Shown here in pieces: positions 44,814 to 62,238 of a DNA stretch of 64,000 nucleotides. The translations under genes were made by a program, and so were the position numbers. Source of the stretch: Sedimentibacter sp. MB31-C6 (GTDB lineage Bacteria; Bacillota; Clostridia; Tissierellales; Sedimentibacteraceae). Where the stretch lies: the NCBI RefSeq assembly GCF_035934735.1, contig NZ_CP142396.1, positions 1,550,001-1,614,000 of the forward strand, given 5' to 3'. Position 1 is the first letter of the stretch. Every line of letters begins with the position of its first letter. The notes under the pieces were generated by a model. It worked only from the letters and a program-made list of their open reading frames with translations. It did not search any database and had not been told where the DNA came from.

Positions 44814-44906
44814 TTAAACAATTAGTATCTGTTAAATATTTACTATAAAGGGTACTGATGGATTTAAATGCAAAGTGATTTTGTGACTCAAAAGGAGGAA
44901 GTAAAA

Positions 44907-46945: not shown

Positions 46946-46974
46946 TTTACACCTTTTCCAATTTATGATATAAT
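46946..46974 (+). promoter_or_regulatory. Promoter of the Moco-riboswitch operon
   Basis: TTTACA (46946-46951), 17-base spacer, TATAAT (46969-46974), with extended -10 TGA. Transcription would begin near 46981, just before the riboswitch. Confidence 0.7.
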
Positions 46975-46992
46975 TTCAATAAAATAATAAAA

Positions 46993-47135
46993 CTCCGAGC
47001 ACAATAGCCTAAGAATTTTTTATGGATGCTGTGCCGATAGGGTTTAACTGGAAACGGTTGGGCCTCCTGATGGAAAGGAGAAAAGAGAACAACTTGAGAA
47101 AAAGCAGCACATTTCCATCAAAAGTGCTGTTTTTT
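46993..47135 (+). ncRNA. Moco (molybdenum/tungsten cofactor) riboswitch with terminator
   Basis: The leader starts CTCCGAGC. GCACA (46999-47003) can pair with TGTGC (47030-47034), followed by GCCGATAGGG. AACTG-GAAA-CGGTT (47046-47059) is a GNRA-capped hairpin, and CTCCT (47064-47068) pairs with AGGAG (47076-47080). This order and these sequences match my memory of the Moco RNA consensus, including the GGAAAGGAGAAAAG tail. The GAAA hairpin favours the Moco over the shorter Tuco type. The expression platform is an 11-bp terminator (47100-47110 / 47124-47134) followed by Ts. An 8-base sequence in the aptamer (GATGGAAA, 47069-47076) is perfectly complementary to the terminator loop (TTTCCATC, 47112-47119). 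No search was run. Confidence 0.85.
47100..47135 (+). terminator. Riboswitch-controlled terminator
   Basis: AAAAGCAGCAC and GTGCTGTTTTT (one G-U pair) with a 13-base loop that contains TTTCCATC, complementary to the aptamer. It lies 58 bases before the first gene, so it decides read-through into the operon. Confidence 0.75.
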
Positions 47136-47193
47136 ATTTGATTTAAATTTAGTTTTACTAAAGTTAAATAAATATAATAAGTGGAGGAATTGT

Positions 47194-48342
47194 ATGTTAA
47201 AAAGATTTAGAGTAATTCTATTTGTATTGATTGCAGTTATAATATTTCAACTGACAGTATTTGCGACTGAAACAAAAGCTTATACTGTTGCTATTGGAGG
47301 AGAGTTTGTTAAAACTGAACTTAATTTAACTTTAAAGGATTTGAAAGAAATGCCTGAGGAAGCTCAAATATCTCAGGAATACATTTACAATTCAAAGTCA
47401 GGAGAAAAAACAGCTCAAGTTAAAGGTGTGAGCTTAGCTTATTTGTTAAAAGATAAAGCAGGAGTAACTGCAGAAGAAGGAATCGTAATATTTACAGCAT
47501 CTGATGGATATGAAATTGATCCACAGCCACTTCAGGATATTTTTAATGATAAATTGAAATTTGTTTTAGCTTATGAAGTAAATGGAGAAATAATTGACAA
47601 TGATGAAATTGAAAATGAAGAAATAACTGTGTATAGAAATTTAAAAGAAGAAGGCGAATTTAATACAGTTTATAAAATGATTAATAAAATTACCATAGAA
47701 GAAGATTTAGAAGAGGTTGTTGAAGAAGAACCTGAGGAAGTTACAGTTGAAGAAACTGATGAAAAAGAAACTGAAACTATTATATTTACTGACATAACGG
47801 AAGAATTTAAATTTGCAGAAACAGCTATTTATGATCTTGTTAATAGAGATATTATAGATGGTATGGGTGATGGACTTTATGCACCTGAAAAGGAATTTAC
47901 TAGAGAACAGTTCTGTAAAATAATAGTTGCAGCTTTAGGATATGAGCTTAAAGATTATGAAGGAGCTTTCAGCGATATAGATAAAGATAGATGGTCATCT
48001 TCCTATGTTCAAGCTGCTGTTGAATCTGGATTATTTATAGGAAACCCTGATGGTACGTTTATGCCCGAAAAAGTAATATCAAGGCAAGAAATAGCAGTTG
48101 TAGCTGCAAGGGCGGCAATTGCAAAAGGTTTAGTAGAACAAACTAAGGTAGATAAATTTGTTATGGAAAAATCAAATTACATAGATAAAAATGATGTAGC
48201 TGAATGGGCAGAGAATGCTGTTGCTTATCTTGAAACTCAGGATGTTTTTGTTGGAGTTGCAGGAGAAAACTTTGAACCTTTAAAGAATGTAAATAGAGCT
48301 GAAGCTGCATTGATAGTATTTAATACATTATTTTCAGAATAA
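47194..48342 (+). CDS. Exported SLH protein with molybdopterin-oxidoreductase-fold domain
   Basis: First gene of the riboswitch operon, 382 residues. A signal peptide ends near VFA (residue 24). Residues 25-170 carry one domain like the molybdopterin-binding oxidoreductase fold (PF00174): VKGVSLAYLLKDKAGV, then TASDGYEIDP. It contains no cysteine. A Glu-rich linker is followed by three SLH repeats from about residue 195 (FTDITEE, AFSDIDKDRW, SNYIDKNDVAEWA), which attach the protein to secondary cell-wall polymer. It is probably the cell-wall anchor of the surface system. Confidence 0.85.
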   Translation: MLKRFRVILFVLIAVIIFQLTVFATETKAYTVAIGGEFVKTELNLTLKDLKEMPEEAQISQEYIYNSKSGEKTAQVKGVSLAYLLKDKAGVTAEEGIVIFTASDGYEIDPQPLQDIFNDKLKFVLAYEVNGEIIDNDEIENEEITVYRNLKEEGEFNTVYKMINKITIEEDLEEVVEEEPEEVTVEETDEKETETIIFTDITEEFKFAETAIYDLVNRDIIDGMGDGLYAPEKEFTREQFCKIIVAALGYELKDYEGAFSDIDKDRWSSSYVQAAVESGLFIGNPDGTFMPEKVISRQEIAVVAARAAIAKGLVEQTKVDKFVMEKSNYIDKNDVAEWAENAVAYLETQDVFVGVAGENFEPLKNVNRAEAALIVFNTLFSE

Positions 48343-48356
48343 TATAACAATAATAT

Positions 48357-48381
48357 AAATGAGCGATTCTTTCGCTCATTT
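48357..48381 (+). other. Intercistronic hairpin
   Basis: AAATGAGCGA and TCGCTCATTT with a TTCTT loop, between the SLH gene and the next gene. The following T tract is short, so it may be a partial attenuator or mRNA-stability element. Confidence 0.55.
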
Positions 48382-48402
48382 ATTATAAATCAGGAGGTTA
48401 TT

Positions 48403-50835
48403 ATGTTCAGAAAAATTATGGTTTGGTTTCTAATTGTTTGTATGCTTATATCAAATGCTGTTGTCTTTGGTAAAACAGCAGAGCTAGAGCTAATAATCAC
48501 AGGCACTGGAGTCAAAGAAGAGGTTTTAATTTCAGAAAAAGACTGGGTAAAATATACGATGGTAGAGAGAACCTTCTCTACTAATAACAGCCTTGGATTT
48601 CATAAAATTATCAAAGCGAAGGGATATGATTTTTTTGAACTTATTAGTGATAATTTGAAATTGGACAAAGATTATACTGTTAAGTTTACTTGCTCAGATG
48701 GTTTTGAATTTACAAAGACTATCAATGAGCTAAAAAATTCATATTATTACAGTGATTTTACTTTGGAAAGCAAGGAAGTGGTAATGCCTATGATTGCAAG
48801 ATATACTACAGTCATGGCTGATTTTCCTAAGAACATTTTCTCTCCTCCCGTTTCATGGACTGATATAGATATAATTGAAAGTGATTTAGACAAGGATTTT
48901 CCGAAATTATTATTTGGACAGACTGATATTGATGACATGAATATGTCAAAATGGGGTAAAAAAATAATAAAGGTTACTGTAGGGGACGAAAGAGTGAAGG
49001 TAACTTCTGAATCACCTTATAAGCACATTGATAGAGATGGAGAGCCTTATAATATTGATGCTATTACAGGAGCAACTTTTACAATTGAGGGACCTGCAGT
49101 TGAAGGTTATAGAGCTGTTTCTTTGAGACAAATAGAAGAAGATACAGAAGGTCAAACCTTGAAAACATACTGTGAAAAAGTTGACGGTAAAGTATTGGAA
49201 AATTCATACGAGGGGATAAATGTCAAATATTTAATTGATAATTATGTGAAAGCAAAGGAGAATGCAGGAAACATTACTTTTAAAGATAAATCAAGACAAA
49301 AAATTCTTACAGTACCTATTTCTGAGGCGGAAAATTACACAGTCGCTTATGGCATTAATGAAGTACCCTTAGTATTTTTGGATACAGAAGATGGTTATAT
49401 TAAAGAAAAACATAACGACAATGGCTGTTTTAAGTTAATTTATCATCAAGATGAAAATACTGCCAAGGAATTTTCTAATGTGGCATATATTTATATAGAA
49501 GAAAAAGACGCTAAAAATATTTATGAGCACAGTTATGCTCCTTATGACGATACTAAATATACTGATTATGAATTGATTATTCACGGTGATGCATTAGAAA
49601 AAGAAGTGAGATATAATGTCAAAGATATTGAAGCAATGGAGGATATTCATGTAACAAAAGAATATAGCCTTTCTAATAGCGAGTATTTTTGGTATTACAA
49701 TACATTTAAGGGTGTTCCATTGTGGGATATTCTTCTTAAAGCAGGGGTAAGCCCAAAAATTGATGAAAATACAAAAGTGCGTTTTATTGCAGCAGATAAT
49801 TATAATTTTGCTCCAATGACTATAAAGCAAATTAAGGATAACTCATTATATGGCTATTATGAAAAAAGTGCGTTAGATAAAGGGGATGGAACATTTCCGG
49901 GTGAATATGTAGACCCTCTTTATACAGAATTTCCAGTGCTAGTTGCTTATGGATTCAATGGATACCCCTATGTAACGAGACCAAATGATGAAGGATTCAA
50001 TCCAGGTATTGGAAATGATGGAGGACCTATTCGAATAATATTCGGTAAAACAAATTATAATGATACAAACGGATCTAATCAGGTACAGTTTGCAAAAGAA
50101 ATAATTATAGGTGAAGGAGAATCTATAGCAACAGAAACCCAGGGAACAGGTGAAGGTGAAAGTACACAAACTGATGTAGGCGAAAATGCATGGAACCACG
50201 AACAAGGCATATATGAGGATTACTTAGACATGCCTGTCCTTCGTGTAACAGGCTCTCAGATAAAAGAACCAAGAACGTTTACTTTAAGACAAATTGAAGC
50301 ATTAAAAGATTATGCAATAAGAGATGTTTATACTGGCGATGGAATTCGTGAAATGGAAGGTATTGTTCTTTGGGATTTAATAAATGAAGTTGTTGAACTT
50401 AAGGATGATGTAGATGTTCCAAGCATAAGAGTATTTAGTGGGCAAAATTACAACCAAATACTAAGAAGTAATGAGCAGGTGATAAATGGAGTTCTAAATT
50501 CTCAGGGACAAATTAAGGATATAATTCTTGCATATGCAGCGGACGGTTATCCTCTTGTTCCCAATGAAGGAAGTATTGGATATGTTAACAACAATGCATA
50601 TGGACCATTGAGACTTATTATTGAAGAAAGCAAATCTATGTGGGTAAAATGGACTGATTGCATAGTTGTTGGTACAGGTGATTATGAAGCACCAGAAATG
50701 AAGGATGTAAAAACAGATACCTTTTTTAGTGATATTGAAAATCACTGGGCAAAAAGACTGCTGTTGCAAAATCAGTTTAGACTGAAATTATTAAAGGGCT
50801 TCCCGGTAATATTTTTGCAGGAACTCAAGAGGTGA
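48403..50835 (+). CDS. Exported protein with about four molybdopterin-oxidoreductase-fold repeats and a broken SLH end
   Basis: An 810-residue exported protein (signal peptide to about residue 23). I count about four repeats of the PF00174-like fold, marked by GYDFFELISDNL, YEGINVKYLIDN, FKGVPLWDILLKAGV and MEGIVLWDLINEV, each followed by a DGY/DNY strand. Residues 219-227 (DAITGATFT) match the flavinylation motif. A Thr/Glu/Gly linker (about 595-615) precedes the last repeat. The C-terminus begins an SLH domain (FFSDIENHWAK) and then goes out of frame. Bases 50757-50837 in another frame read TAVAKSV, stop, TEIIKGLPGNIFAGTQEV, clearly SLH. The reading frame shown is as encoded. Confidence 0.8.
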   Translation: MFRKIMVWFLIVCMLISNAVVFGKTAELELIITGTGVKEEVLISEKDWVKYTMVERTFSTNNSLGFHKIIKAKGYDFFELISDNLKLDKDYTVKFTCSDGFEFTKTINELKNSYYYSDFTLESKEVVMPMIARYTTVMADFPKNIFSPPVSWTDIDIIESDLDKDFPKLLFGQTDIDDMNMSKWGKKIIKVTVGDERVKVTSESPYKHIDRDGEPYNIDAITGATFTIEGPAVEGYRAVSLRQIEEDTEGQTLKTYCEKVDGKVLENSYEGINVKYLIDNYVKAKENAGNITFKDKSRQKILTVPISEAENYTVAYGINEVPLVFLDTEDGYIKEKHNDNGCFKLIYHQDENTAKEFSNVAYIYIEEKDAKNIYEHSYAPYDDTKYTDYELIIHGDALEKEVRYNVKDIEAMEDIHVTKEYSLSNSEYFWYYNTFKGVPLWDILLKAGVSPKIDENTKVRFIAADNYNFAPMTIKQIKDNSLYGYYEKSALDKGDGTFPGEYVDPLYTEFPVLVAYGFNGYPYVTRPNDEGFNPGIGNDGGPIRIIFGKTNYNDTNGSNQVQFAKEIIIGEGESIATETQGTGEGESTQTDVGENAWNHEQGIYEDYLDMPVLRVTGSQIKEPRTFTLRQIEALKDYAIRDVYTGDGIREMEGIVLWDLINEVVELKDDVDVPSIRVFSGQNYNQILRSNEQVINGVLNSQGQIKDIILAYAADGYPLVPNEGSIGYVNNNAYGPLRLIIEESKSMWVKWTDCIVVGTGDYEAPEMKDVKTDTFFSDIENHWAKRLLLQNQFRLKLLKGFPVIFLQELKR

Positions 50836-50837
50836 TT
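50721..50837 (+). pseudogene. Decayed SLH domain remnant
   Basis: The in-frame start FFSDIENHWAK is followed by an A run (50751-50755). One extra A would restore the frame into KTAVAKSV, a TAG (50778-50780) and then TEIIKGLPGNIFAGTQEV, the normal continuation of an SLH repeat. Only part of one repeat remains of the usual three. Confidence 0.75.
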
Positions 50838-51569
50838 ATGAAAAGAATATTGATTATATTAATGGCTTTACTGCTGTTACTGGCTGGATGTTCAACAAGT
50901 GTAAATGAGAATTCAGATATTGATAATAATGAAAAAATAGAATCAGCAACCCTAAAACCTGATGAAAAAACTACTGAAGGAGAAATAGAATCCGAAGAGG
51001 ATAATAATATAGAACAAATAACAGAAGAACCAACAACAGAAGAACTAATAACAGAAGAACCAATAACAGAAGAACCTTCATCAGTAGAGCAAACAAATAA
51101 TATTGATGATGAAAAAAATACAAAGAATCTATTAAAAATAGAAGGATTGGTTGAAAATGAACTTTCACTTTCACTAGATGAATTAAAAGCAATGACTGAC
51201 ATTATTTTTGAGGCTGATTTTTATTCATTGAATAGTTTTGGCACCACAGGATATACATATTTTAAAGGAATTAAGCTATGGAATTTATTAGATGAAGTAG
51301 CCTTGATAAAGCCTGATGCAACAAAAATATCTATAATTGCTGAGGATGGCTATAAAATGGAATTTACAATAGAACAAGTACAAAATGAGTATATTGATGA
51401 AACAAATCCTGAAAATAAGTATCCAATGATTATAGCGTGGGAAGAAGATGGCGAAGAATATAATACAGATGAAGGTGCTCCATATAAGTTAGTAGTAGGT
51501 CAAAAGGAGGCAGGAGATGTGAATAAGCCTCAGTGGGTTTCAAACATAGATGTAATCCTTATAGAATAG
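50838..51569 (+). CDS. Lipoprotein with molybdopterin-oxidoreductase-fold domain
   Basis: A 243-residue lipoprotein. The ATG at 50838 is preferred over the GTG at 50832 because GAGGTG is its ribosome site. The lipobox is LLAGC (Cys18). Residues about 20-95 form an acidic, Thr/Glu/Pro-rich stalk built from a 15-base tandem repeat (TEEPT/TEELI/TEEPI). One PF00174-like domain follows (FKGIKLWNLLDEV, IIAEDGYKMEF, PYKLVVGQ) without cysteine. The frame is continuous with the SLH remnant upstream. It looks like a membrane-tethered member of the domain family. Confidence 0.8.
   Translation: MKRILIILMALLLLLAGCSTSVNENSDIDNNEKIESATLKPDEKTTEGEIESEEDNNIEQITEEPTTEELITEEPITEEPSSVEQTNNIDDEKNTKNLLKIEGLVENELSLSLDELKAMTDIIFEADFYSLNSFGTTGYTYFKGIKLWNLLDEVALIKPDATKISIIAEDGYKMEFTIEQVQNEYIDETNPENKYPMIIAWEEDGEEYNTDEGAPYKLVVGQKEAGDVNKPQWVSNIDVILIE
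51021..51076 (+). repeat. 15-bp tandem repeat encoding an acidic stalk
   Basis: Three copies of a 15-base unit (ACAGAAGAACCAATA and variants) plus a partial fourth, keeping frame as TEEPx/TEELx. Confidence 0.85.
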
Positions 51570-51577
51570 GTGAAATT

Positions 51578-53155
51578 ATGAAGAATAGATATAGATATAT
51601 TATCGCAATTATATTAATTGTAGTTGGTTTTTTATTTTTTGTATTGAATGATTCTTCTAAAGAGGAAAAGGAAGTAAGAGTATTTTATCCTCAAGCAAAA
51701 AAAGTAACTTTGATAAAAAACATTGCGGATGACTTATATGGCTCTTTGTATTTTCCGGCAGTAAAAAGGGCTTATGAAGTAGATGGAGAAATTTGCGCAT
51801 ATGTTGTAAGCTGTGTGGGGTATAATGGTCCTATTGAAGTTTTAGCTGCTATTGATAACAAAAAAGATAAATTAATTGGAATACAAATTTTAAACCACGA
51901 AGAATCTATGGACTATGCAGAGCATATAGAAAAAAACTGGTTTTTGGATAGGTTTAAAAATTTGCCTGTGAATAAATATTTAAATATGGTGGTGCTTGAC
52001 AAGGAAAATCCTGAAGATATAGTTCAAGTTACAGGAGCAACAGTAAGTTCGCAGGCAGTAGTGAGCGCAGTAAATGCTGCTATAGGACACTATCAATATT
52101 GGAATTATAGTATACAATTACCGAAGGTTCCGGATGTAGTACCACAGGAAATGTGGCAAAAAGATATAAATAGTTTTGCTATAAATTGGGAAGGTGGGTC
52201 TGTTCGTATAGATACTGATGAAATAAAAGAATATGAGCAGATAGAAATGGATACAACACTTATAAATACAACAGGAACCGAAACAAAATTACGTGTAACA
52301 GGTCCTACTCTTAGACATGTTTTGGATATGGAAGGTATTGATTTAAGTGAATATGAAGGTATAGGTATAACCGGAAGAGATGGATATTATACTATGATAG
52401 ACAAGGAAAAATTAGAAGTAAATGACATAATATTAACCTGGAAAGTCAACGGCAAAGATATAAAAGATGAAGATAAGCCTGTAAGAGTATCTGTTCCTTT
52501 GGAACTTGGACCATATTGGGTAAAGATGGTTTCCAATATTGATTTATATAAAGAAATATCTCCTAAGGATATAGATAGCGTTCATATGTTTAATCCATTA
52601 ACTGAAGATATTGAGCCATATTATTATGAATACTATGGAGCTAAGGATAAGTCAATAGAGGTAGGGAAAATATTAAGAAAATTTGACGAAGTTGATGAAA
52701 AAGGTTTTTTCACTATGGGTGCTGTAGACGGTCTTATAAAAAATGAAACAATATCATTGGTAAGGCAAAGATATTTTCTAAAGGTTGAAGGAGACAATGC
52801 TCCAATGAATATTGCTCCCAATTTCAAGCTTGGTATGAATGTAAAAGAAATGACGCATTTTTCAACTACAAAAGATGCAGTGATTTTCCCTGAAAAAATA
52901 ATCGAAGTTGTAAGAACAAAGTCTATATATGGTAATGAAGGAATGCTTTTGGAAGACGTATTGCTAACAGCAGGAATGAGATGGGATGAAGTAGATAACT
53001 TTACTGCTGTGAAAACAGATGAAACTACAATAGATTTATCATTGGAAGACTTGTTGAAATGTTATTTGATATATGAAGACAAATCTGTAATTTTATATAA
53101 AGGAAATAGTGAAATAATGAGGTCGCTTTTAAGGATTGAAAAGAATGAAATATAA
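51578..53155 (+). CDS. Membrane-anchored FMN-binding protein with molybdopterin-oxidoreductase-fold domains
   Basis: The start is set at 51578 (RBS AGGTGA), not at the earlier in-frame codon inside the previous gene. The 525 residues have an N-terminal membrane anchor (about 7-23). An FMN_bind domain follows, with VTGATVSS (T155 as flavinylation site). Two PF00174-like regions come next, marked VTGPTLRHVLDMEGI and NEGMLLEDVLLTAGM. It fuses a covalent-flavin carrier to the surface domain family, so it may pass electrons between them. It overlaps the NapH-like gene by 11 bases, so translation is coupled. Confidence 0.85.
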   Translation: MKNRYRYIIAIILIVVGFLFFVLNDSSKEEKEVRVFYPQAKKVTLIKNIADDLYGSLYFPAVKRAYEVDGEICAYVVSCVGYNGPIEVLAAIDNKKDKLIGIQILNHEESMDYAEHIEKNWFLDRFKNLPVNKYLNMVVLDKENPEDIVQVTGATVSSQAVVSAVNAAIGHYQYWNYSIQLPKVPDVVPQEMWQKDINSFAINWEGGSVRIDTDEIKEYEQIEMDTTLINTTGTETKLRVTGPTLRHVLDMEGIDLSEYEGIGITGRDGYYTMIDKEKLEVNDIILTWKVNGKDIKDEDKPVRVSVPLELGPYWVKMVSNIDLYKEISPKDIDSVHMFNPLTEDIEPYYYEYYGAKDKSIEVGKILRKFDEVDEKGFFTMGAVDGLIKNETISLVRQRYFLKVEGDNAPMNIAPNFKLGMNVKEMTHFSTTKDAVIFPEKIIEVVRTKSIYGNEGMLLEDVLLTAGMRWDEVDNFTAVKTDETTIDLSLEDLLKCYLIYEDKSVILYKGNSEIMRSLLRIEKNEI

Positions 53156-54308
53156 AATACGAAATATAATACAAATAATTACAACTGTTACAGTAATAAT
53201 ATCATGTTTGATTTATTATATGTATATAAATGAAATTATAGATTTTAGATTCTTTTCTATAGGTGATATGAATCCTTATGGTGGATGGAGTGCAGTGAAA
53301 TCTGCCTTTACTGATTTATCTTACAGGTGGCGGGGCTTTTCAAGAAGCATTGCATTAACATTTGGAATAACCATTACTGCATTATTATTGGGAAGATTCT
53401 TTTGTGGATTTATTTGTCCTATTGGAGCAATACAGGATTTTTTTAAATACTTAGGCAGTAAAATAAAACTTGAGGAAATAAAGTTTTCACATAAGCCCGA
53501 ATTTATAAAATATATAATATTAATAATAATATTGATTATAAGTATTTTGGGAATGGGAAATATTATTTCCCCAATTTCACCGTGGATTGCTTACCTAAAT
53601 ATATTTGCGGGATTTAATTTGCAACTAGGTACTGTAATTTTATTGTTGATTGCTTTGATATCATTGTTTGGAAGAAGGATATTCTGCAGGTATTTTTGTT
53701 TTTTTGGAGCTTTTCAAAGTTTGCTATATTCCATTGGGCCTTTTAAGATAAAGAAGAATGATTGTGAATCGTGTTCTTATTGCTTAAGAAATTGTCCTGT
53801 TTCTGAGCAGCTTAGAATATCTGAAGTTGAAGAAAATATTTCTCCCGAATGCATTAACTGTCTAGAATGTATAAATACTTGTGTAAAAGATAATGAGGGT
53901 TATTCGATTAAAATAGGAAATAAAAAAATTAAAAGTAATATTTATATAATATTTTGTATTTGTATAATTTTAAGTTCATATATTTTGTTACCTTTAATAG
54001 ATGTTACAGATGTACAAGCCATAGCAACTATTGAAAATATTAAGGACGGTATCTATTTAGGTTCAGGTATTGGGTTTGGCGGAATTATGAATGTAGAAGT
54101 CGTAATAAATAATAATAAAATTTCTAATATAAAAATATTAAATCACAGAGAAACAACAGGTTATTATGAAGAGGTATTTCGTTATATTTCATATAAAATT
54201 TTAGAATCACAAAATTTAAATTTAGATGCTGTGAGTGGTGCTACTTCTTCTTCACGAGGTTTTATTAATTCAGTAAAGGATGCTGTAAGTAAATCCTTAG
54301 TCAACTGA
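53145..54308 (+). CDS. NapH-like 4Fe-4S membrane protein fused to an FMN-binding domain
   Basis: The ATG at 53145 is favoured by AAGGA nine bases upstream; a TTG at 53136 is possible. The 387 residues have about five membrane helices with two CxxxC(P) motifs (C87/C91 and C181/C185) as in NapH/NosR-type proteins. A double 4Fe-4S ferredoxin region follows (C207, C210, C213, C217; C236, C239, C242, C246). Another membrane helix (about 265-285) leads to an external FMN_bind domain with SGATSS (T367). This architecture can take electrons from quinol or cytoplasmic donors and deliver them to flavins outside. It is the likely electron entry point of the system. Confidence 0.88.
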   Translation: MKYKIRNIIQIITTVTVIISCLIYYMYINEIIDFRFFSIGDMNPYGGWSAVKSAFTDLSYRWRGFSRSIALTFGITITALLLGRFFCGFICPIGAIQDFFKYLGSKIKLEEIKFSHKPEFIKYIILIIILIISILGMGNIISPISPWIAYLNIFAGFNLQLGTVILLLIALISLFGRRIFCRYFCFFGAFQSLLYSIGPFKIKKNDCESCSYCLRNCPVSEQLRISEVEENISPECINCLECINTCVKDNEGYSIKIGNKKIKSNIYIIFCICIILSSYILLPLIDVTDVQAIATIENIKDGIYLGSGIGFGGIMNVEVVINNNKISNIKILNHRETTGYYEEVFRYISYKILESQNLNLDAVSGATSSSRGFINSVKDAVSKSLVN

Positions 54309-54323
54309 TTAAAGGCGGTTAAT

Positions 54324-54794: not shown

Positions 54795-54802
54795 AGGCAT
54801 TT

Positions 54803-55354
54803 ATGGAAAATAAATTTCTAAAAAATTATACATTATTCAATTTAATTATTATAGCAATAGTATCAGCTCTTGGGATAGCAACAAAACCAATAGTGGTACC
54901 ATTAGTTCATATAATAACGGGACCATTGTTTATACCAGGGGGAGCAATAGCCGGCGGTTTTTATATGTTTTGGGTAGTCCTTGGTACAGGTATTGTTAAA
55001 AAAACAGGCACAGGTACTTTAATAGGTATTGTTCAGGGTATATTGGTAATTGCAACTGGAACAATGGGAACTCACGGGGTTATGAGTCTTATTTCTTATA
55101 CATTACCAGGAATAACTGTAGATATTGTATTTTTATTTTCCAAAAATAAGAAATATAATTCTCTTCATTATATTTTGGGATGTACGGTTGCAAATATTAC
55201 AGGAACATTGATTTCCAACATATTATTTTTTAGGTTACCACTTGTTACGGTTGTTTTGATATTGTCTGTAGCAGCTTTGTCAGGAATAGTAGGTGGGATT
55301 ATTGCATATAGCATTGCTAAAGGTTTGGAAAAAATGAATATATTAGAGGAATAA
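54803..55354 (+). CDS. ECF transporter S-component
   Basis: A 183-residue membrane protein with about six helices and the small-residue-rich N-terminal helix (NLIIIAIVSALGIATKPIVVP) used for contact with EcfT. PGGAIAGGFYMFWVVLGTGIV and GTGTLIGIVQGIL recall the YkoE-like S-component group, which includes putative thiamin-precursor carriers. A complete energizing module (two ATPases and EcfT) is encoded 1.5 kb downstream in the same operon. The riboswitch and mobB context suggests a pterin, cofactor or oxyanion-related substrate rather than thiamin, but this is inference. Confidence 0.82.
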   Translation: MENKFLKNYTLFNLIIIAIVSALGIATKPIVVPLVHIITGPLFIPGGAIAGGFYMFWVVLGTGIVKKTGTGTLIGIVQGILVIATGTMGTHGVMSLISYTLPGITVDIVFLFSKNKKYNSLHYILGCTVANITGTLISNILFFRLPLVTVVLILSVAALSGIVGGIIAYSIAKGLEKMNILEE

Positions 55355-55355
55355 A

Positions 55356-56357
55356 ATGAAAAAATTATTTTTAGTATTTTTAATATTTCTAGTTGGATGT
55401 AGTGTAAAAGTTAGTGAAACAAGTTCAGAAGAAATAGGAATAAGCATATTTAATGAAAATGAAAATTTAATGGTTGATTTTGTTCCTGAGGGAAGAGTAT
55501 CGATAAAAGAAATAATTGATGTGGATTTTTTTCATGCTATAGTCATTAGTAAAACAGGAGAAGTAAATTTAATATCTTCTGATTTTTATATTAACAAAAA
55601 CAAATCGGTTTTTGTAACTTATGAAAATAGAAATATAAAAAATATTGAAGGAATATATTTGACAGACAAATACAACAGTATAACCAATGCATATTTTGAA
55701 ACGAAAGAATACTTAAAAAGTGATAAAAAAGTAATGACAGTGCTTTTAGATGGTTTTTCATTTAATCAATTTAAGATACTTAATGAAAAAAATGACATTC
55801 CATTTTTAAGCAAATATTTTAAATATCCTGCACTAAGTGTATATACTCCTGTTACCAATGCAGGATATGCTGCAATTATTACAGGACAAACTCCTAATAT
55901 TAATGGTGTACATGACAGAAGTGTTAGAGAAATGAATGTAGATAGTATATTTGAATACGCTAATAGTAACAATAAAAATTCGCTTTTACTTGAAGGGGAT
56001 ATTAAAATATTAGACACTGAAATTGAACCTGAACTTCATATAGATATTAACAAAGATAAAGATACAGATGATGAAATGTATAAAAGTGCATTAAATGCTG
56101 TAAATGAAAATTATGATTTGATTTTCGTTCATTTTCACGGAATTGATGACAGAGGACATAGCTATGGACCATATTCAGAAGAAACCATGGAATATATAAA
56201 AATAATCGACCAATATTTGCTAAATTTAAGTAAAGTGTGGGATGGAGCAATTATAATTGTACCTGATCATGGCATGCATGAAACTTCTGAAGGAGGGGGT
56301 CATGGAATCTGTGTTCAATCTGATATGGTTGTGCCGTATTTCATTAAAGAAAAATGA
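55356..56357 (+). CDS. Surface NPP-type phosphodiesterase/alkaline phosphatase superfamily lipoprotein
   Basis: A 333-residue lipoprotein (LVGC, Cys15) of the alkaline phosphatase superfamily, closest to nucleotide pyrophosphatase/phosphodiesterases. The two-metal site is complete: D132 (LLDGF), nucleophile T167 (PVTNAGYAA), D264 and H268 (GIDDRGH), D304-H305 (VPDHGMH) and H316 (GGGHG). Residues 20-120 form an extra beta-rich region. Such enzymes split dinucleotides or phosphodiesters outside the cell. Beside an ECF importer it could trim FAD or a molybdopterin dinucleotide before uptake. The true substrate is unknown. Confidence 0.87.
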   Translation: MKKLFLVFLIFLVGCSVKVSETSSEEIGISIFNENENLMVDFVPEGRVSIKEIIDVDFFHAIVISKTGEVNLISSDFYINKNKSVFVTYENRNIKNIEGIYLTDKYNSITNAYFETKEYLKSDKKVMTVLLDGFSFNQFKILNEKNDIPFLSKYFKYPALSVYTPVTNAGYAAIITGQTPNINGVHDRSVREMNVDSIFEYANSNNKNSLLLEGDIKILDTEIEPELHIDINKDKDTDDEMYKSALNAVNENYDLIFVHFHGIDDRGHSYGPYSEETMEYIKIIDQYLLNLSKVWDGAIIIVPDHGMHETSEGGGHGICVQSDMVVPYFIKEK

Positions 56358-56866
56358 AAAGAAGAGTTACAATAGTTGTTATGTTAATAATTACATTGAT
56401 AATTATAATATTTATTTCATTAAATATAAATAGAACTTATGTTGAAAAACAAAAAGAAATTTTATCAAAAGCAGAAATTATATTAAAATATGATGATGAA
56501 AAAAAAGTTTTAACCAAGGACATGATAATGTTCTACAGTGAAGATTTTGAAGCAGTTCTTGATACTTCAACTTCAGACCCTAAAACTCATATTTATACGG
56601 GGGTTCAGTTAAAGGATTTGCTTAAAGAAAATAATATTGACTTTAAGGACAAAGTTATTATAATCAGAGCAGTTGATGGATATTCAGTTGCTTATTCTTC
56701 AGAAGAAATTTCAATGGATAAGAATGTTTATATTGCTTTTATGGAAGATGGTAAATACCTTGGAAGCAGAGATATAGGTGGGAGAGGTCCTTATGAATCA
56801 ATTGTAGTATCAGACATTTTCAGCAATAGAAGGTGTAAATGGATTACTGAAATAGAGGTTAAATAA
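56354..56866 (+). CDS. Membrane-anchored single molybdopterin-oxidoreductase-fold protein
   Basis: A 170-residue protein with an uncleaved-looking N-terminal helix (about 4-25) and one PF00174-like domain outside: YTGVQLKDLLKENNI, IIRAVDGYSVAYS, GGRGPYESIVVSDIFSNRRCKW. It overlaps the phosphodiesterase gene by 4 bases and the ATPase gene by 1, so it is translationally linked to the transporter. It may act as a receptor or docking protein for the ECF substrate. Confidence 0.8.
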   Translation: MKRRVTIVVMLIITLIIIIFISLNINRTYVEKQKEILSKAEIILKYDDEKKVLTKDMIMFYSEDFEAVLDTSTSDPKTHIYTGVQLKDLLKENNIDFKDKVIIIRAVDGYSVAYSSEEISMDKNVYIAFMEDGKYLGSRDIGGRGPYESIVVSDIFSNRRCKWITEIEVK

Positions 56867-57522
56867 TGAATGCAGTTGAAGTTAAGAATTTAAGCTTTAA
56901 ATATAATAATGTAGATGAATATATATTAAGGGATGTAAATCTTAATATAAAGGTTGGTGAAACAGTTGCAATAATAGGGCAAAGTGGATGTGGTAAAAGT
57001 ACTTTATGCAACTGTATTTGTGGATTGATTCCAAGAGTTTATACTGGGGAATTATCAGGTGAAGTATTAATTTTTGGTGAAAATATTATAAATTTTAGTA
57101 TTGCTGATACAGTAACAAAAATAGGAATTATATTTCAAAATCCTTCAACACAACTTTTTTCACCTACGATTGAGGATGAACTTGCCTTTGGCCCTGAAAA
57201 TCTATGTGTCGATAGAGAAGAAATAGGTAAACGTATTGAAAGAATATTGAAAATAATGAACATGGAGCAATATAGATATGACAATCCAAATAATTTATCA
57301 GGAGGCCAACAGCAACTTATTGCAATTGCGTCAGTTTTAATGCTTAATCCATCAATACTTATATGTGATGAAATAATGTCTTGGATTGATGATGAAGGAA
57401 AACAAATTATCAAGAATCTTCTGTTAAAATTAAAAGAAGAAGGAAAAACAATAATCATGGTTGACCATGAACTTGAAAATATTCAAATTGCAGATAGAAT
57501 AATATATTTAGGTGAACAATGA
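56866..57522 (+). CDS. ECF transporter ATPase 1
   Basis: A 218-residue ABC ATPase. Walker A is GQSGCGKST (38-46), the Q-loop IIFQNPSTQLFSPTIEDELAFG is typical of EcfA proteins, the signature is LSGGQQQLIAIASVLML, and Walker B is ILICDEIMSWID, where the usual LDEPTS is altered. It pairs with the next ATPase to energize the S-component through EcfT. Confidence 0.92.
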   Translation: MNAVEVKNLSFKYNNVDEYILRDVNLNIKVGETVAIIGQSGCGKSTLCNCICGLIPRVYTGELSGEVLIFGENIINFSIADTVTKIGIIFQNPSTQLFSPTIEDELAFGPENLCVDREEIGKRIERILKIMNMEQYRYDNPNNLSGGQQQLIAIASVLMLNPSILICDEIMSWIDDEGKQIIKNLLLKLKEEGKTIIMVDHELENIQIADRIIYLGEQ

Positions 57523-58175
57523 AAAATAAAATTGAAATCAATAATATTTCTTATGGTTATAACAGAAGGAGAAAGGTTTTTGAAAACTTTTCACTTCAGA
57601 TAAATAACGAAGAAACCACAATTTTAACAGGAAAAAATGGTTCAGGTAAAACAACTCTAACAAAGTTAATAATGGGTATTATTAAACCATCATATGGAGA
57701 AATAAAAATATTTGGACAAAGAACTGCTGACATGTCACTTGGTAGCATAGGGAAAATTATAGGCTATGTTTTTCAGTATCCTGAAAGGCAGCTTTTTACT
57801 AGTTCGGTTATGGAAGAACTGACATTTCCATTAATATTTAAGGGACTCGACAAAGAAGAAACCTTCGTCAAAGCTGAAGAAATGATAAAAATCTTTGATC
57901 TTAAAAAAGTCAAAGACACATACCCCTTTTTATTAAGTTACGGTGAAAAGAGGCGTTTAGCTATTGCTTCAGTATTGATGAATGAACCAAAGTATATAAT
58001 ATTGGATGAGCCTACTGCTTCATTAGACAGAGAAAGAATAGATACTTTGTCAGAGGTGCTTTATAAACTTAAAAATAAAAAAATAGGTATGCTAATTATA
58101 ACTCATAACAAAAATTTTATTATTAAACATGGAGACAGAGTGATAAAAATTGAAGGGGGTAGAGCTTATGAATAA
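57519..58175 (+). CDS. ECF transporter ATPase 2
   Basis: A 218-residue ABC ATPase partner. Walker A is GKNGSGKTTL, the Q-loop VFQYPERQLFTSSVMEELTFP is EcfA-like, the signature is LSYGEKRRLAIASVL (second residue Y instead of G), and Walker B is IILDEPTASLD. It overlaps the previous gene by 4 bases and EcfT by 8. Confidence 0.92.
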   Translation: MKNKIEINNISYGYNRRRKVFENFSLQINNEETTILTGKNGSGKTTLTKLIMGIIKPSYGEIKIFGQRTADMSLGSIGKIIGYVFQYPERQLFTSSVMEELTFPLIFKGLDKEETFVKAEEMIKIFDLKKVKDTYPFLLSYGEKRRLAIASVLMNEPKYIILDEPTASLDRERIDTLSEVLYKLKNKKIGMLIITHNKNFIIKHGDRVIKIEGGRAYE

Positions 58176-58890
58176 TATAGATCCCCGAACGAAGTTAGTT
58201 CAAGTTTTAATATTATCGTCCCTTGCATTGATTTATAATAAATTATCAATATTATTAGTTGTATTATTAATAGCAATATTAATTGCATTATCATATAAAA
58301 TTAATATAATATCTATATTAATTAGACTTAAAAAGTTAATTAAAGTTATAATTTTAATTGCATTAATTCAAAGTTTATTAACTAAGATTGGTAAGCCTAT
58401 TTTGACAATAGGCGGTGTCACATTGTTTACGGATTATGGAGTTTTAAGGTCCCTTGAATTTATTCTTCGTCTTGGAATAATAATTGTTTCTGCAGCAATC
58501 ATTACAACTTCATCGAGCAGAGAAATAATTCAGGGATTAATTCAGTGGCATTGTCCCTATGAAATAGCTTTCATGGTTTCTGTTGCTATAAGGTTTTTGC
58601 CTATATTCAGAGAAGAAATGTTAGATATGATTACAGCTATACAGCTTAGAGGAATTGATTTAAAGAAAGTTAAATTAAGAAAAAAGATTCAAGTTTATAA
58701 ATACATACTAACTCCAATAACAATAAATTCTGTGATTAAAGCAAAGGAATTAGCTGCTGCTATGGAAATGAGAGGGTTTAGGGCTTATTCTAAAAGGACA
58801 AGCTACATGATTTTAGAAATGAAAACCTTCGATTATCTTATAATAGCTCTTAACGTTTCAGCAACAATGTTATTTATTATTTACAAATAG
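58168..58890 (+). CDS. ECF transporter transmembrane protein EcfT
   Basis: The start is at 58168 behind GAAGGGGG rather than the in-frame TTG at 58150. The 240 residues start NNIDPRTKLVQV, the usual EcfT beginning. Several membrane helices follow, then the two coupling motifs MITAIQLRGID and ELAAAMEMRGF that contact the ATPases. It scaffolds the S-component encoded at 54803. Confidence 0.92.
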   Translation: MNNIDPRTKLVQVLILSSLALIYNKLSILLVVLLIAILIALSYKINIISILIRLKKLIKVIILIALIQSLLTKIGKPILTIGGVTLFTDYGVLRSLEFILRLGIIIVSAAIITTSSSREIIQGLIQWHCPYEIAFMVSVAIRFLPIFREEMLDMITAIQLRGIDLKKVKLRKKIQVYKYILTPITINSVIKAKELAAAMEMRGFRAYSKRTSYMILEMKTFDYLIIALNVSATMLFIIYK

Positions 58891-58901
58891 AGAGGTGCAT
58901 T

Positions 58902-59648
58902 ATGAAAGTTTTTTCTGTTATCGGGATATCACAATCCGGCAAAACTACAACCATAGAGAATATAATTAAAGAACTTAAAAAAAGAAATTATTCTGTAGGA
59001 AGTGTAAAAGAAATACATTTTGAAGATTTCAAAATGGATATAGAAGGGACAAATACTCATAGACACAAAATTGCAGGTTCTCAATTGGTTACAGCTAGAG
59101 GTGCATATGAAACTGACATATTGTTTCAAAGTAAATTAAGCATAAATGATATTTTAAGTTTTTACAATTATGATTTTGTTATATTAGAAGGAGTAAGGGA
59201 TACTTGTGCGCCTAAAATAGTAACAGCTCATGATGTTGAAGGAATTAAAAATAGATTTGATGATACGGCATTTGCAATATCAGGTAGGATATCTAATAAT
59301 ATAGATAAATATGAAGATATTCCAGTAATTAATTCAATAACTCAAATAAAAGAATTAGTTGACTTAATTGAAGAAAAAGTTTTTGATAGCCTTCCTGATA
59401 TGAAAGATGAATGTTGTAAAAAGTGCGGACATACTTGTAGAGAATTATGCTCGCTTATATTAAAGAAAGAAGCAGAAAGAAAAGATTGCGTTTTGACAAA
59501 ACAAAGCGTAACTCTTAAGGTTAACGGTCTTGAAATTAATATGGTACCTTTTGTTCAAAATATTTTGAAAAATACAGTTGAAGCTGTTACTAAGGAATTA
59601 GATGGTTATATGGAAAATGGAGACATTGAAATATGCATAAAAAGATAA
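58902..59648 (+). CDS. mobB: MobB-like molybdopterin-guanine dinucleotide biosynthesis protein with Cys-rich C-terminus
   Basis: A 248-residue GTPase-fold protein. The P-loop is GISQSGKTTT (8-17), with SVGSVKEIHF, EGTNTHRHKIAGS and DFVILEGVRD (Walker B-like), all MobB hallmarks. MobB assists MobA in attaching nucleotides to molybdopterin. The C-terminal extension beyond residue 165 holds CC--C---C---C (C171, C172, C175, C179, C183) plus C196, a probable metal or Fe-S site absent from E. coli MobB. It links the operon directly to Mo/W cofactor maturation and agrees with the riboswitch. RBS AGAGGTG precedes the ATG. Confidence 0.87.
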   Translation: MKVFSVIGISQSGKTTTIENIIKELKKRNYSVGSVKEIHFEDFKMDIEGTNTHRHKIAGSQLVTARGAYETDILFQSKLSINDILSFYNYDFVILEGVRDTCAPKIVTAHDVEGIKNRFDDTAFAISGRISNNIDKYEDIPVINSITQIKELVDLIEEKVFDSLPDMKDECCKKCGHTCRELCSLILKKEAERKDCVLTKQSVTLKVNGLEINMVPFVQNILKNTVEAVTKELDGYMENGDIEICIKR

Positions 59649-60262
59649 AATTAATCAGTAAACGAAATAATGTATTTCGTATTGTTGAAAATGATAGTAC
59701 TTATATTTTAAAAAAATTTAAAAACCAAGAAAATTACATAAAGGAAATTGAAATATTAAATGTACTGAAAAATGCTGGTGTTAATGTTCCTTCGATAATT
59801 AAATCTGATGAAAATTGTATTTATCTTGAAGATTTGGGTAGTGTGACGTTACTTGATTGGTATGAAGAACAGGAAAAGCAGAATAAGTTGGACATTAATA
59901 TGGTTTATAATCTTTGCAGATGGCTTAAAGTTTTTTATAGAGAAGTTCTTGAATTACATAAAGAACAAGTAATTTTAACAGATGTAAATTTTAGAAATTT
60001 TATTATTAATGATAATGAAATTTACGGGATTGATTTTGAACAGGTGTGTGAAGGGATTATATTAGAAGATGTAGGTAAGTTTTCTGCCTACGCATTGACT
60101 TATGAGCCAGTTATGACAGAATGGAAGATTAATTTTAGAAACAAATTTATTGATATAATGTCAAAAGAATTAAATATAGACAAAGAAAAGATAATATTAG
60201 AAGAAAAAAAAGAGTTATTAGCTATGGAAAGAAGAAGAGGGATTTTGTTTAAGGATTTTTAA
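59633..60262 (+). CDS. Kinase-fold protein (APH/Bud32-like), small
   Basis: A 209-residue cytoplasmic protein. Kinase-like elements are present: KKFKNQENYIKEIEIL (ATP lysine and helix C), a hinge-like YLEDLGSVTLLDWY, the catalytic loop LTDVNFRNFII with D117 and N122, and a DFG-like GIDFE (D134). It is too short for a full aminoglycoside kinase and is nearer to minimal Bud32/RIO or lipopolysaccharide-kinase types. It overlaps mobB by 16 bases. The target may be a small molecule of the cofactor pathway, but nothing in the sequence shows it. Confidence 0.72.
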   Translation: MHKKIKLISKRNNVFRIVENDSTYILKKFKNQENYIKEIEILNVLKNAGVNVPSIIKSDENCIYLEDLGSVTLLDWYEEQEKQNKLDINMVYNLCRWLKVFYREVLELHKEQVILTDVNFRNFIINDNEIYGIDFEQVCEGIILEDVGKFSAYALTYEPVMTEWKINFRNKFIDIMSKELNIDKEKIILEEKKELLAMERRRGILFKDF

Positions 60263-60273
60263 AGGAGGCTAAG

Positions 60274-62169
60274 ATGAGAAAATCATTTGTATTACTTTTA
60301 GTTGTTATAATTTTCATGCAAACCATAACTGGTTTTTCACTTGAAACATTGAATATGCAAAAACAGTCAAATATTGAAACAAATCAAAATAATGACTTTT
60401 TAAAAAAAGTAGAATGGCATGGTGAATATGACGTTATTGTTGTTGGATATGGAGGAGCAGGAGCCACAGCAAGCATAGAAGCAGCTGATGAGGGAGCAAA
60501 GGTACTTCTTCTTGAGAAGGCTCCTAAAGGTGAAGAAGGAGGCAACACAAGGTTTGCTGGGCAAGGTGTTTTAAGCATTGATACAGAGGATATGGATAAA
60601 GGTATTGAATATTTTAAGTATCTTCGTGGTAAATTCAATACGCCGAGTGATGAAATGATAAAATCATATTTAGAATCAGTAAGCGAAAACTATGACTGGC
60701 TTAAAAAAATTGGAGCTCAAAATATTACTGTTTTTCCCTTTCAGGAATATAATTATCCTGGTGGAGAAGTAATGGATGCAACGTTAATAGATGGTGAAGC
60801 TTGGACAAGTTCGTTGTATAGAACATTGCAAGAGGCAGTTGAAGATAGACGTACTTTAATTGATATATGGTATGAATCGCCGGGAGTAGGATTAATACAA
60901 GATCCTAAAACGAAAATAATTCACGGAGTTAAGGTTGATAATAATGGAACATTATTAAATATTCGTGCTAAGAATGGAGTAGTTCTTTGTACAGGGGGAT
61001 TTGAAAACAATCAGCAAATGATTCAAGATTATTTACAATTGCCTTATGGTTATTCAAAAGCAGCAAGATACAATACAGGAGACGGAATTAAAATGGCAAT
61101 GGAAGTTAAAGCAAATTTGTGGCATATGAGCAATCTAGCCGGACCTGATTTAAATGTTTTAAACCCAGAAACTAATACAACATTTGCTTATGCTATTCAA
61201 GGGAAGAAGGATACTTTAAGTACAGGTTTTGCAACACAAAATGTTATTTTTGTAGGAGCAGATGGAACCAGGTTTGTCGATGAATCAGTGCTACCGAACC
61301 ATGGTCATGTTAATTTTCACGGTACATGGAATCAGATGGCTTTGTCTCTTCCTGCATATGCAATATTTGACGAAACTGCTCGTCTTTCACAGTCTGTCTA
61401 TCCTACATGGAGTGAAGGAAATGAGGAAGAAATAGAAAGAGGTATAATAGTAAAAGCAAATACTATAAATGAATTAGCTGAAAAAATTGGAGTTAACCCT
61501 GTAAATTTACAAAAGCAAATATCAGAATATAACGAATATTGTTATGATAAAAAGGACCCTATCTTTAGTAGAGCTAAAGACACTCTCAAATCTATCGAAA
61601 AAGCTCCTTATTATGCGATGGAATTAGTTCCCTCCTTTACTAATACTCAGGGTGGACCTGAAAGAAATGAAAATGGTGAAATATTAGATGTGAAGGGCAA
61701 TGTAATTCCACATCTTTACAGCGCCGGGGAGTTAGGCTCAATGTTTTCAGGTATTTATCAAGGAACGGGAAATTTAGGAGAATGTGTGGCCTTTGGAAGA
61801 ATATCGGGTAGAAATGCAGCTAAAAATAAGAATGATGTAACTATGGAATCTGTAATGTTAGGTAAAACTCCTATTATAGCAGATTGGAAAGAGCCTGGAG
61901 AAGTTATTTGTCAAACTGGAGAGTTAATAGGAGAAGACAGAGGAATAGGTGGTCCTTTAAAGGTAAAAGTTACAATGAAGGACGATATAATAACAGATAT
62001 TGAGGTTATATATCACAATGAAACTAAAGGAGTAAGTAGCAATGCAATAGAAACAATTACGTCAGCAATTATAGAAAATCAAACACCTGATGTAGACGCA
62101 GTTTCAGGGGCAACTGTTACAAGTAAGGGAATTATTAACGCAGTTAAGGATGCCCTTGAAAAAAAGTAA
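60274..62169 (+). CDS. Exported flavoprotein reductase: fumarate reductase-like FAD domain plus C-terminal FMN-binding domain
   Basis: A 631-residue exported protein with a signal peptide (about 1-22, no lipobox). The FAD domain starts at YDVIVVGYGGAGATAS. It carries RFVDESVLPNHG, NTQGGPERN and a SAGELGSMF/YQGTGNLGEC segment in place of the HGxNRLGxNA of the first flavoprotein, so substrate chemistry differs. The C-terminal FMN_bind domain ends with AVSGATVTS (T614 flavinylated). Domain order is the reverse of the 44907 protein. It is the last gene of the riboswitch operon and is closed by a strong terminator. The acceptor is unknown. Confidence 0.9.
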   Translation: MRKSFVLLLVVIIFMQTITGFSLETLNMQKQSNIETNQNNDFLKKVEWHGEYDVIVVGYGGAGATASIEAADEGAKVLLLEKAPKGEEGGNTRFAGQGVLSIDTEDMDKGIEYFKYLRGKFNTPSDEMIKSYLESVSENYDWLKKIGAQNITVFPFQEYNYPGGEVMDATLIDGEAWTSSLYRTLQEAVEDRRTLIDIWYESPGVGLIQDPKTKIIHGVKVDNNGTLLNIRAKNGVVLCTGGFENNQQMIQDYLQLPYGYSKAARYNTGDGIKMAMEVKANLWHMSNLAGPDLNVLNPETNTTFAYAIQGKKDTLSTGFATQNVIFVGADGTRFVDESVLPNHGHVNFHGTWNQMALSLPAYAIFDETARLSQSVYPTWSEGNEEEIERGIIVKANTINELAEKIGVNPVNLQKQISEYNEYCYDKKDPIFSRAKDTLKSIEKAPYYAMELVPSFTNTQGGPERNENGEILDVKGNVIPHLYSAGELGSMFSGIYQGTGNLGECVAFGRISGRNAAKNKNDVTMESVMLGKTPIIADWKEPGEVICQTGELIGEDRGIGGPLKVKVTMKDDIITDIEVIYHNETKGVSSNAIETITSAIIENQTPDVDAVSGATVTSKGIINAVKDALEKK

Positions 62170-62177
62170 TAATGCAT

Positions 62178-62215
62178 AAAAACTCCCTAATTGTAACAGT
62201 AATTAGGGAGTTTTT
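62178..62215. terminator. Bidirectional Rho-independent terminator
   Basis: A perfect 15-bp stem (AAAAACTCCCTAATT / AATTAGGGAGTTTTT) with an 8-base loop, between the convergent flavoprotein and hflC genes. Confidence 0.95.
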
Positions 62216-62238
62216 GTTGCAATCAATACTTAGAGTTC

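Follow-up and report, generated by a model that had tools for sequence, protein, structure and literature searches.

A Moco riboswitch-headed operon of Sedimentibacter sp. MB31-C6 with a probable role in scavenging the molybdenum/tungsten cofactor

The window analysed here is a 64,000-nt stretch of contig NZ_CP142396.1 of Sedimentibacter sp. MB31-C6 (assembly GCF_035934735.1, positions 1,550,001 to 1,614,000), in which a riboswitch of the Moco family heads 15 successive genes of the + strand (47194-62169). We consider that this operon probably encodes a salvage system for the molybdenum/tungsten (Mo/W) cofactor, the substrate being most likely the metal-loaded cofactor of either metal (Moco or Wco) and possibly its pterin part. 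The salvage reading is favoured because it accounts together for the Moco-type RNA, the energy-coupling factor (ECF) transporter, the pterin-fold binders, the MobB protein, the occurrence of the importer in users of Mo/W-pterin enzymes only, and the lack of synthesis genes in many carriers.

Judged from its gene content, the cell has tungsten-pterin enzymes and no visible known route to the pterin, since neither MoaC nor the C-terminal domain of MoaA gave a match in the 3.02-Mb genome (2 contigs, 99.57% complete) despite four AFOR_N matches, the mark of tungsten enzymes of the aldehyde ferredoxin oxidoreductase (AOR) type. The same searches were positive in 11 of 14 control genomes. MoaE was not found in the genome either, which is uninformative given that nearly the whole order is without it; PF02391 matched in only 13 of the 249 genomes surveyed below, compared with 139 for MoaC, and the absence of MoaE was dropped as a marker of synthesis. 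A small ThiS/MoaD-like protein (by eye) with a GG end is nevertheless encoded ahead of the AOR genes (L005:2725-2949). All five PF00174 matches of the window genome (E ≤ 0.001) lie inside the operon. Two RF01055 matches occur elsewhere in it: a second (65.2 bits, P3 filled) precedes a FecCD-like (by eye) ATP-binding cassette (ABC) transporter, a MobA-MoeA fusion and MobB, and a third (34.4 bits, below the cut-off, no P3) stands before an aldehyde ferredoxin oxidoreductase gene and one for what looks by eye like a small Fe-S protein.

The leader of the operon had been assigned to the Moco RNA consensus in an earlier, sequence-only reading of this DNA, and the covariance model confirms the assignment: 46981-47096 (+) matches RF01055 at 66.4 bits (E 8.6e-14), the gathering score being 36. 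The P3 positions are deleted in the model alignment, which places the aptamer in the Tuco-type (tungsten cofactor) subtype; Regulski and colleagues associated this P3-lacking form with the tungsten cofactor (PMC2408646). The promoter and terminator previously proposed on either side of the aptamer were likewise recovered, as a promoter-like site and a terminator-like hairpin. The former (46946-46974, +) reads TTTACA-17-TATAAT with an extended -10 (TG), agrees with the consensus at 11 of 12 positions and lies 6 nt 5' of the aptamer; promoter-like sites in the window overall are at shuffle level (102 vs 99.7), and only the placement before the aptamer supports this one. The latter (47099-47135, +) consists of a 12-bp stem and a T run, with 47097-47145 folding at -14.2 kcal/mol (z -3.95). 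A candidate antiterminator strand in the conserved 3' part of the aptamer (47068-47076, +) shows 9-bp complementarity to 47112-47120 in the terminator loop. A simple terminator scan reported neither this hairpin nor the one at the operon end.

Leaders were compared across 33 cases, 15 from the order, counting that of the window, and 18 drawn from the 52 RNA-bearing named loci described below. A strong terminator stood within 110 nt in 16 of the 33, against 1.5% of 660 random control stretches from the same loci, and the complementarity of the 5' half of the terminator to the 3' part of the aptamer averaged 16.9, compared with 12.3 after shuffling (31 scorable leaders, 18 of them at p ≤ 0.05). 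Together, the terminator enrichment and the antiterminator complementarity suggest that the leaders are designed as transcriptional OFF switches.

Downstream of the leader, all genes lie on the + strand with gaps of at most 60 nt and several overlaps, and they are presumably co-transcribed. The closely spaced run described earlier, reaching to a terminator near 62178, stands, with 15 genes counted in place of the 14 then given. Its domain list was also borne out by Pfam (SLH with Oxidored_molyb, FMN_bind, NapH-like Fer4 with FMN_bind, ECF parts, phosphodiesterase, MobB, APH fold, and FAD_binding_2 with FMN_bind), other than for the second SLH-type protein (48403-50835), which has no SLH domain in this strain. 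All subunits of an ECF transporter are encoded in the run, namely the substrate-binding (S) component EcfS (54803-55354, PF09819), the ATPases EcfA1 (56866-57522; PF00005, and ECF_ATPase_1 at 213 bits, below the equivalog cut-off) and EcfA2 (57519-58175, PF00005), and the transmembrane component EcfT (58150-58890; PF02361, CbiQ, 102.4 bits). A second, distant EcfS-like protein is encoded in the window genome (L141:7158-7688; 36% identity); the 14 kb inspected hold no ECF core. Its gene adjoins a short protein with a sub-threshold LysR-type helix-turn-helix match (ModE-like by eye), and neighbouring genes resemble, by eye only, Mo-hydroxylase accessory genes, with Pfam blank for the one checked.

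Proteins of the SUOX (sulfite oxidase) fold are found at several predicted positions of the cell envelope. SLH1 (47194-48342; PF00174, PF00395) is an exported SUOX-fold domain with SLH stretches, and SLH2 (PF00174) is a large exported SUOX-fold protein whose C-terminal SLH repeats are missing here. Lp1 (50832-51569; PF00174, 45.5 bits) appears to be a lipoprotein, with a lipobox-like LLAGC by eye, and FmbSUOX (51533-53155, its start probably near 51578 by eye; PF04205, PF00174) joins FMN_bind and the SUOX fold on a membrane anchor. Gene 6 encodes Lp2 (54324-54794), a SUOX-like lipoprotein scoring below the cut-off (PF00174/Oxidored_molyb, 17.1 bits), while Lp3 (56354-56866; PF00174, 25.4 bits) is a membrane-anchored SUOX-fold core protein. 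In this strain SLH2 (810 aa) breaks off within a disrupted and truncated first SLH repeat, and its gene passes directly into the following one. Complete relatives in the inspected stretches are ~950-1320 aa long, a relative in L061 has three SLH stretches, and the shortening may be strain variation or a sequencing error.

Three further genes encode candidate processing proteins: an exported protein (lipobox by eye) of phosphodiesterase/nucleotide pyrophosphatase fold (PDE; 55356-56357, PF01663, 62.8 bits), MobBx, in which a MobB P-loop domain is joined to a four-Cys C-terminal module (58902-59648, PF03205), and an APH-fold kinase (59633-60262, PF01636). The flavin part comprises, besides FmbSUOX, a NapH-like membrane Fe-S protein with a C-terminal FMN_bind domain (53136-54308; PF12801, PF04205; NapH/MauN models below cut-off) and an accessory exported FAD + FMN_bind reductase (60274-62169; PF00890, PF04205). 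The operon ends at a terminator (62178-62217, +; 62170-62225 folds at -25.4 kcal/mol, z -7.7). A second exported FAD + FMN_bind reductase (44868-46844) lies directly upstream of the operon promoter.

Conservation of the module was followed with an EcfS profile. It retrieved 248 relatives from the GTDB collection, of which 80 were kept and 79 had an EcfS frame on the expected strand. Many of these 79 loci are cut by contig ends, making the following component counts lower bounds. The core consists of EcfA1 (71), EcfA2 (69), EcfT (67) and Lp3 (65), followed by FmbSUOX-like proteins with FMN_bind and/or SUOX (59), MobBx (54), PDE (52) and the APH-fold kinase (43); rarer are Lp1 (31), SLH2 (25), NapH (21), Lp2 by its own profile (18), SLH1 (16) and the FAD reductase (7). 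A minimal version, RNA-EcfS-Lp3-A1-A2-T, is present in G162/L049 and has no flavin part at all. The constant part is the importer, that is, the ECF transporter with a SUOX-fold protein, and since the flavin and NapH parts vary while ECF and SUOX-fold proteins are constant over the 79 loci, the flavin chain is an accessory of the long version. Hosts include Sedimentibacter hydroxybenzoicus, S. acidaminivorans, Geosporobacter, Alkaliphilus, Anaerosalibacter and [Clostridium] ultunense, and also Pelotomaculum, Syntrophomonas, Sporotomaculum, and Halanaerobiales and Dehalococcoidia assemblies.

In 52 of the 79 loci a Moco-type RNA, sought with a model built from 16 operon leaders, lies 5' of EcfS and shares its strand; in some of them (e.g., L077, L085, L095, L125) several kb and other genes separate the two. 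A Bacillota assembly has three consecutive copies of the RNA 5' of EcfS (L139:8183-8649), and in Geosporobacter ferrireducens a second copy follows the operon and precedes a PF00171-family aldehyde dehydrogenase (L071:15553-17415), perhaps a tungsten-free backup that is off when tungsten cofactor is available.

Structure predictions and conserved residues were then considered. The Lp3 model (predicted local distance difference test, pLDDT, 94.3) resembles the pterin-binding protein PruR (7kom; Z 16.6, root-mean-square deviation (rmsd) 2.1, 123 residues) and, about equally well, sulfite oxidase (3hbg; Z 15.9, rmsd 2.4, 128 aligned). Going by the general pattern of the family, the Mo-ligating Cys would be expected within a stretch of 32 residues that leads up to G[VIT]xL. 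A motif-pattern search of the named loci found a Cys there in only 8 of 172 SUOX domains (SLH1 0/16, SLH2 3/25, Lp1 0/22, FmbSUOX 4/42, Lp2 0/11, Lp3 1/56), and because this residue is mostly absent at the expected ligand position, the SUOX-fold proteins look like pterin or cofactor binders rather than redox enzymes. Cys161 of Lp3 was considered as a substitute metal ligand; it was apparent in an alignment of 12 sequences but present in only 28 of 48, and was rejected. The EcfS model (pLDDT 88.6) is closest among S components to 5edl (Z 20.2, rmsd 2.7, 174 residues) and then to ThiT structures, a likeness seen by fold comparison only, as an EcfS profile search against the sequences of solved structures matched none. 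Residues that we take to be the catalytic positions of their families are conserved in the kinase (D117, N122 and D134 invariant in 25 sequences), in PDE (18 sequences, all of them with D132, T167, D264, D304, H305 and H316 and nearly all with H268) and in MobBx (P-loop kept, with C172, C175, C179 and C196 invariant in 23 sequences).

The distribution of the importer was surveyed in 249 genomes of the order (Tissierellales), the family membership of some of which was deduced from genome numbering. RF01055 matched in 90 of them at E ≤ 0.001 (88 over the cut-off), MoaC in 139, MoeA in 119, AFOR_N in 101 and PF00384 in 128 (110 at ≤ 1e-30). Genomes with AFOR_N or PF00384 at 1e-30 or better were counted as users of Mo/W-pterin enzymes, these cut-offs having been set after viewing the lists; 10 genomes with weak AFOR matches (5e-10 to 2e-22) and 18 with PF00384 matches weaker than 1e-30, which we take to be probably NuoG-like, were set aside from the AFOR set and the PF00384 set, respectively, and G001 lies on the limit at 1.0e-30. 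EcfS orthologues (E < 1e-50) were present in 35 genomes, and seven more had weaker matches, including the contig-end cases G246 and G230. All 35 carriers, and the seven weaker ones, are users, and none of the 108 non-users has EcfS. Every one of the 35 also has an RF01055 match at E ≤ 0.001 somewhere in its genome, that of G174 (1.5e-5) being probably below the cut-off.

Over all 249 genomes EcfS is independent of MoaC (20 carriers with and 15 without it, compared with 119 and 95 of the others; p 1). Within the 141 users, EcfS was found in 15 of the 27 genomes without MoaC and in 20 of the 114 with it (Fisher p 1.2e-4), and among the 106 users that are at least 90% complete in 9 of 19 and 17 of 87, respectively (Fisher p 0.017). 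The 15 MoaC-lacking carriers are spread over families f1, f6, f10, f11, f15 and f16, and nine of them are at least 90% complete. Twelve are also without MoeA, which serves metal insertion, including G022, a single 4.68-Mb contig; import of metal-loaded cofactor is favoured because of these 12. In genus g60, G188 and G190 have both MoaC and MoeA and no EcfS match, whereas G189 has the module, adjoining a PF00384 enzyme gene, and neither synthesis gene. The search for MoaA was confined to the window genome.

Stretches were inspected in five of the 12 importer-negative, MoaC-lacking users. The module of G230 is cut by a contig end and adjoins a PF00384 enzyme, the first two genes of the module stand at a contig end in G222, and in G243 a MoaA gene (by eye) lies at a contig edge; the inspected stretches of G205 and G086 hold no module. 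If G222, G230 and the MoaC-positive G246 are counted as carriers, the figures become 17 of 27 against 21 of 114 with a within-family p of 0.011, or 0.18 (Fisher 0.0013) among the users at least 90% complete. The single-contig G205 (L143) has a MobA-like gene (by eye) and a formate dehydrogenase-like PF00384 gene whose frame contains a TGA; it gave no match to MoaC, MoeA or EcfS, and either salvages the cofactor in some other way or carries an inactive enzyme.

Several of these results weigh against the salvage reading. Only 8 of the 108 non-users belong to families that hold carriers, which makes their lack of EcfS a weak test, and relatedness could therefore explain most of it. Twenty of the 35 carriers keep MoaC, so that the module is not only for auxotrophs, and 6 of the 15 that lack it are below 90% complete. 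Permutation within families weakens the MoaC association to p 0.066 in the strict set and to p 0.62 among users at least 90% complete; the link between importer and MoaC is present between families and not demonstrated within them. The additions described above are post hoc, G222 and G230 having been found by inspecting only importer-negative, MoaC-negative genomes. Even so, ten MoaC-lacking users are without a detected module; G243 is explained by its assembly edge, and the other nine, single-contig G205 among them, are unexplained. At the level of the loci, the kinase, PDE and MobBx are absent from many. Of the 27 loci without the RNA, 16 begin within ~0.8 kb of the end of the available sequence, but an Rfam scan of the other 11, which have more upstream sequence, found no RNA upstream, and G194/L055 is likewise without one; the leader of L106 is the one of 33 without any terminator. 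Finally, the structure closest to EcfS, 5edl, is one that we take to be the thiamine-type YkoE. As for the binders, PruR binds pterins and lacks the same Cys, but its pocket is reported to be likely too small for Moco (PMC13259868).

On the salvage reading, the Cys-less SUOX-fold proteins of the S-layer, lipoprotein and membrane would capture cofactor released by neighbouring cells and hand it inwards. The exported PDE would cleave nucleotide forms (molybdopterin guanine or cytosine dinucleotide, MGD/MCD), and the ECF transporter (EcfS-A1-A2-T), predicted to run inwards, would import the product, which the cytosolic MobBx and APH-fold kinase may then bind or re-phosphorylate for AOR-type tungsten enzymes. 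In longer versions the flavin carriers and a NapH-like electron feed could keep the captured pterin, or an extracytosolic site, reduced. The P3-lacking Moco RNA and its terminator would turn the operon off when cofactor is plentiful.

Other explanations share parts of this evidence. The nearest is a version within salvage, in which a pterin precursor or a metal-free (or dephosphorylated) molybdopterin enters through the ECF transporter and the cell completes the cofactor; it fits the window genome, but seems rather unlikely to us. That genome keeps a MobA-MoeA fusion, MobB and the riboswitch-headed FecCD-like (by eye) ABC transporter, which could provide the metal and insert it, and the cytosolic kinase would suit re-phosphorylation after uptake; however, in the 12 MoaC-lacking carriers that also lack MoeA, metal insertion by the known route is unexpected. 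The substrate might instead be another pterin or a thiamine-type compound, with only an indirect link to the Moco RNA, as the resemblance of EcfS to 5edl and then ThiT, and the binding of small pterins by PruR (PMC13259868), would allow. We judge this improbable, given that 35 of 35 carriers use Mo/W-pterin enzymes, that MobB is encoded in the operon and that a Moco RNA stands before many of the loci.

The sequence-only reading had taken the operon for an extracellular electron-transfer apparatus under Moco control, and had raised the alternative that the system scavenges Moco or Wco. The alternative fared better: the importer core, the missing MoaA and MoaC, and the finding that all carriers use the cofactor support it. 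A function like flavin-based extracellular electron transfer (FLEET), with the ECF transporter handling flavin for flavinylation and the SUOX-fold proteins acting as redox enzymes, could draw on the FMN_bind carriers and NapH-like membrane donor (genes 4, 5 and 15) and on the transporter that supplies Listeria with extracytosolic flavins, encoded near flavinylation genes (PMC11334425). Yet no ApbE domain was found among the 15 genes, to which that search was limited; NapH is present in 21 and the FAD reductase in 7 of the 79 loci, and L049 is flavin-free; the SUOX domains mostly lack the Cys; and neither a Moco-type RNA nor MobB is predicted by it. Electron transfer was rejected as the core function on the conservation of the module over the 79 loci, and as an explanation of the operon we regard it as very unlikely. 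Equally hard to credit is outward loading, in which the surface SUOX-fold proteins would be Moco or Wco enzymes supplied by an ECF transporter running outwards. Moco RNAs are known 5' of cofactor-using enzymes, and two P3-lacking RNAs of Syntrophomonas wolfei precede genes for a 'putative Moco-utilizing sulphite oxidase' (PMC2408646); these genes, noted as exceptions by Regulski et al., may belong to the same module. Against outward loading, known routes would leave the 12 carriers without MoaC and MoeA with nothing to export, and the Cys is mostly absent from the SUOX domains.

No bacterial Moco importer was found in the open-access literature, within the portion of the broad search results that was seen and with subscription papers and preprints outside the scope. 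In the accessible part of a 2013 regulon survey the coenzyme-uptake categories are B12, thiamin, riboflavin, queuosine and folate, with none for Moco (PMC3766115), and a table in the part of a 2022 riboswitch paper that was available gives '-' in the transporter column for the MoCo RNA (PMC9495176). If the salvage reading is true, uptake of the Mo/W cofactor would be the first in bacteria, as far as the literature searched reaches. More tentatively, and with somewhat more doubt than conviction, we suggest that the operon represents a widespread module, the first in bacteria for uptake of the intact cofactor, through which the cofactor is traded as a public good; surface SUOX-fold proteins would pass it from wall to lipoprotein to ECF importer, and some anaerobes that lost MoaA/MoaC and MoeA would subsist on what other cells release. 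Such a system could account for anaerobes that have tungsten enzymes without synthesis genes, and would offer a possible function for a branch of Cys-less SUOX proteins. With its candidate binder, importer, PDE and kinase, the gene set opens bacterial cofactor salvage to direct testing, and might yield tools for Moco delivery, of relevance to human Moco deficiency.

In kind, the system is probably one of ECF cofactor salvage, assembled from ordinary parts in a new combination and with a probable new substrate. The Isd heme relay of Gram-positive bacteria has wall, lipoprotein and membrane binders in a chain that ends in an importer, and the chain of binders proposed here is comparable, although folds and cofactor differ. 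ECF vitamin and heme transporters (5edl-type; LhaSTA of Staphylococcus lugdunensis, an ECF heme scavenger whose LhaS takes heme from host proteins; PMC7299338) share the S component, ATPases and T component and scavenge a ready-made cofactor, whereas the present operon adds a Moco-type RNA, SUOX-fold binders, PDE and a kinase and has a predicted Mo/W-pterin substrate. PruR (7kos, 7kom; PMC13259868) is likewise an exported SUOX fold without the Mo-ligating Cys; here, in contrast, the proteins are membrane- or S-layer-anchored, occur several to an operon beside a transporter, and are only predicted to bind a pterin. No DcpA/DTB-type regulator is adjacent, as Pfam showed no cyclic-di-GMP or sensor-kinase domain in any of the 15 genes. 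The long version resembles flavinylated extracytosolic electron-transfer systems (PMC8238504, PMC11334425) in its FMN_bind carriers and membrane electron donor, but the flavin part is variable here, and 'molyb' and 'ECF' are absent from the main texts of both papers. The Moco/Tuco riboswitch regulons share the RNA family and the P3-lacking form of tungsten-cofactor organisms, but the targets named in the accessible part of their description belong to molybdate/tungstate transport or cofactor synthesis or are enzymes that use the cofactor, with cofactor uptake not among them (PMC2408646). The preQ1/queuosine salvage operon of Clostridioides difficile is likewise headed by a cofactor-type riboswitch, which is followed by an ECF S component (QrtT) and by salvage enzymes (the hydrolase QueK and the lyase QueL; PMC11477304). 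Its substrate is another one, and the operon described here differs further in that its RNA is of the Moco type and that it encodes an ECF core of its own along with SUOX-fold binders and a MobB-like protein.

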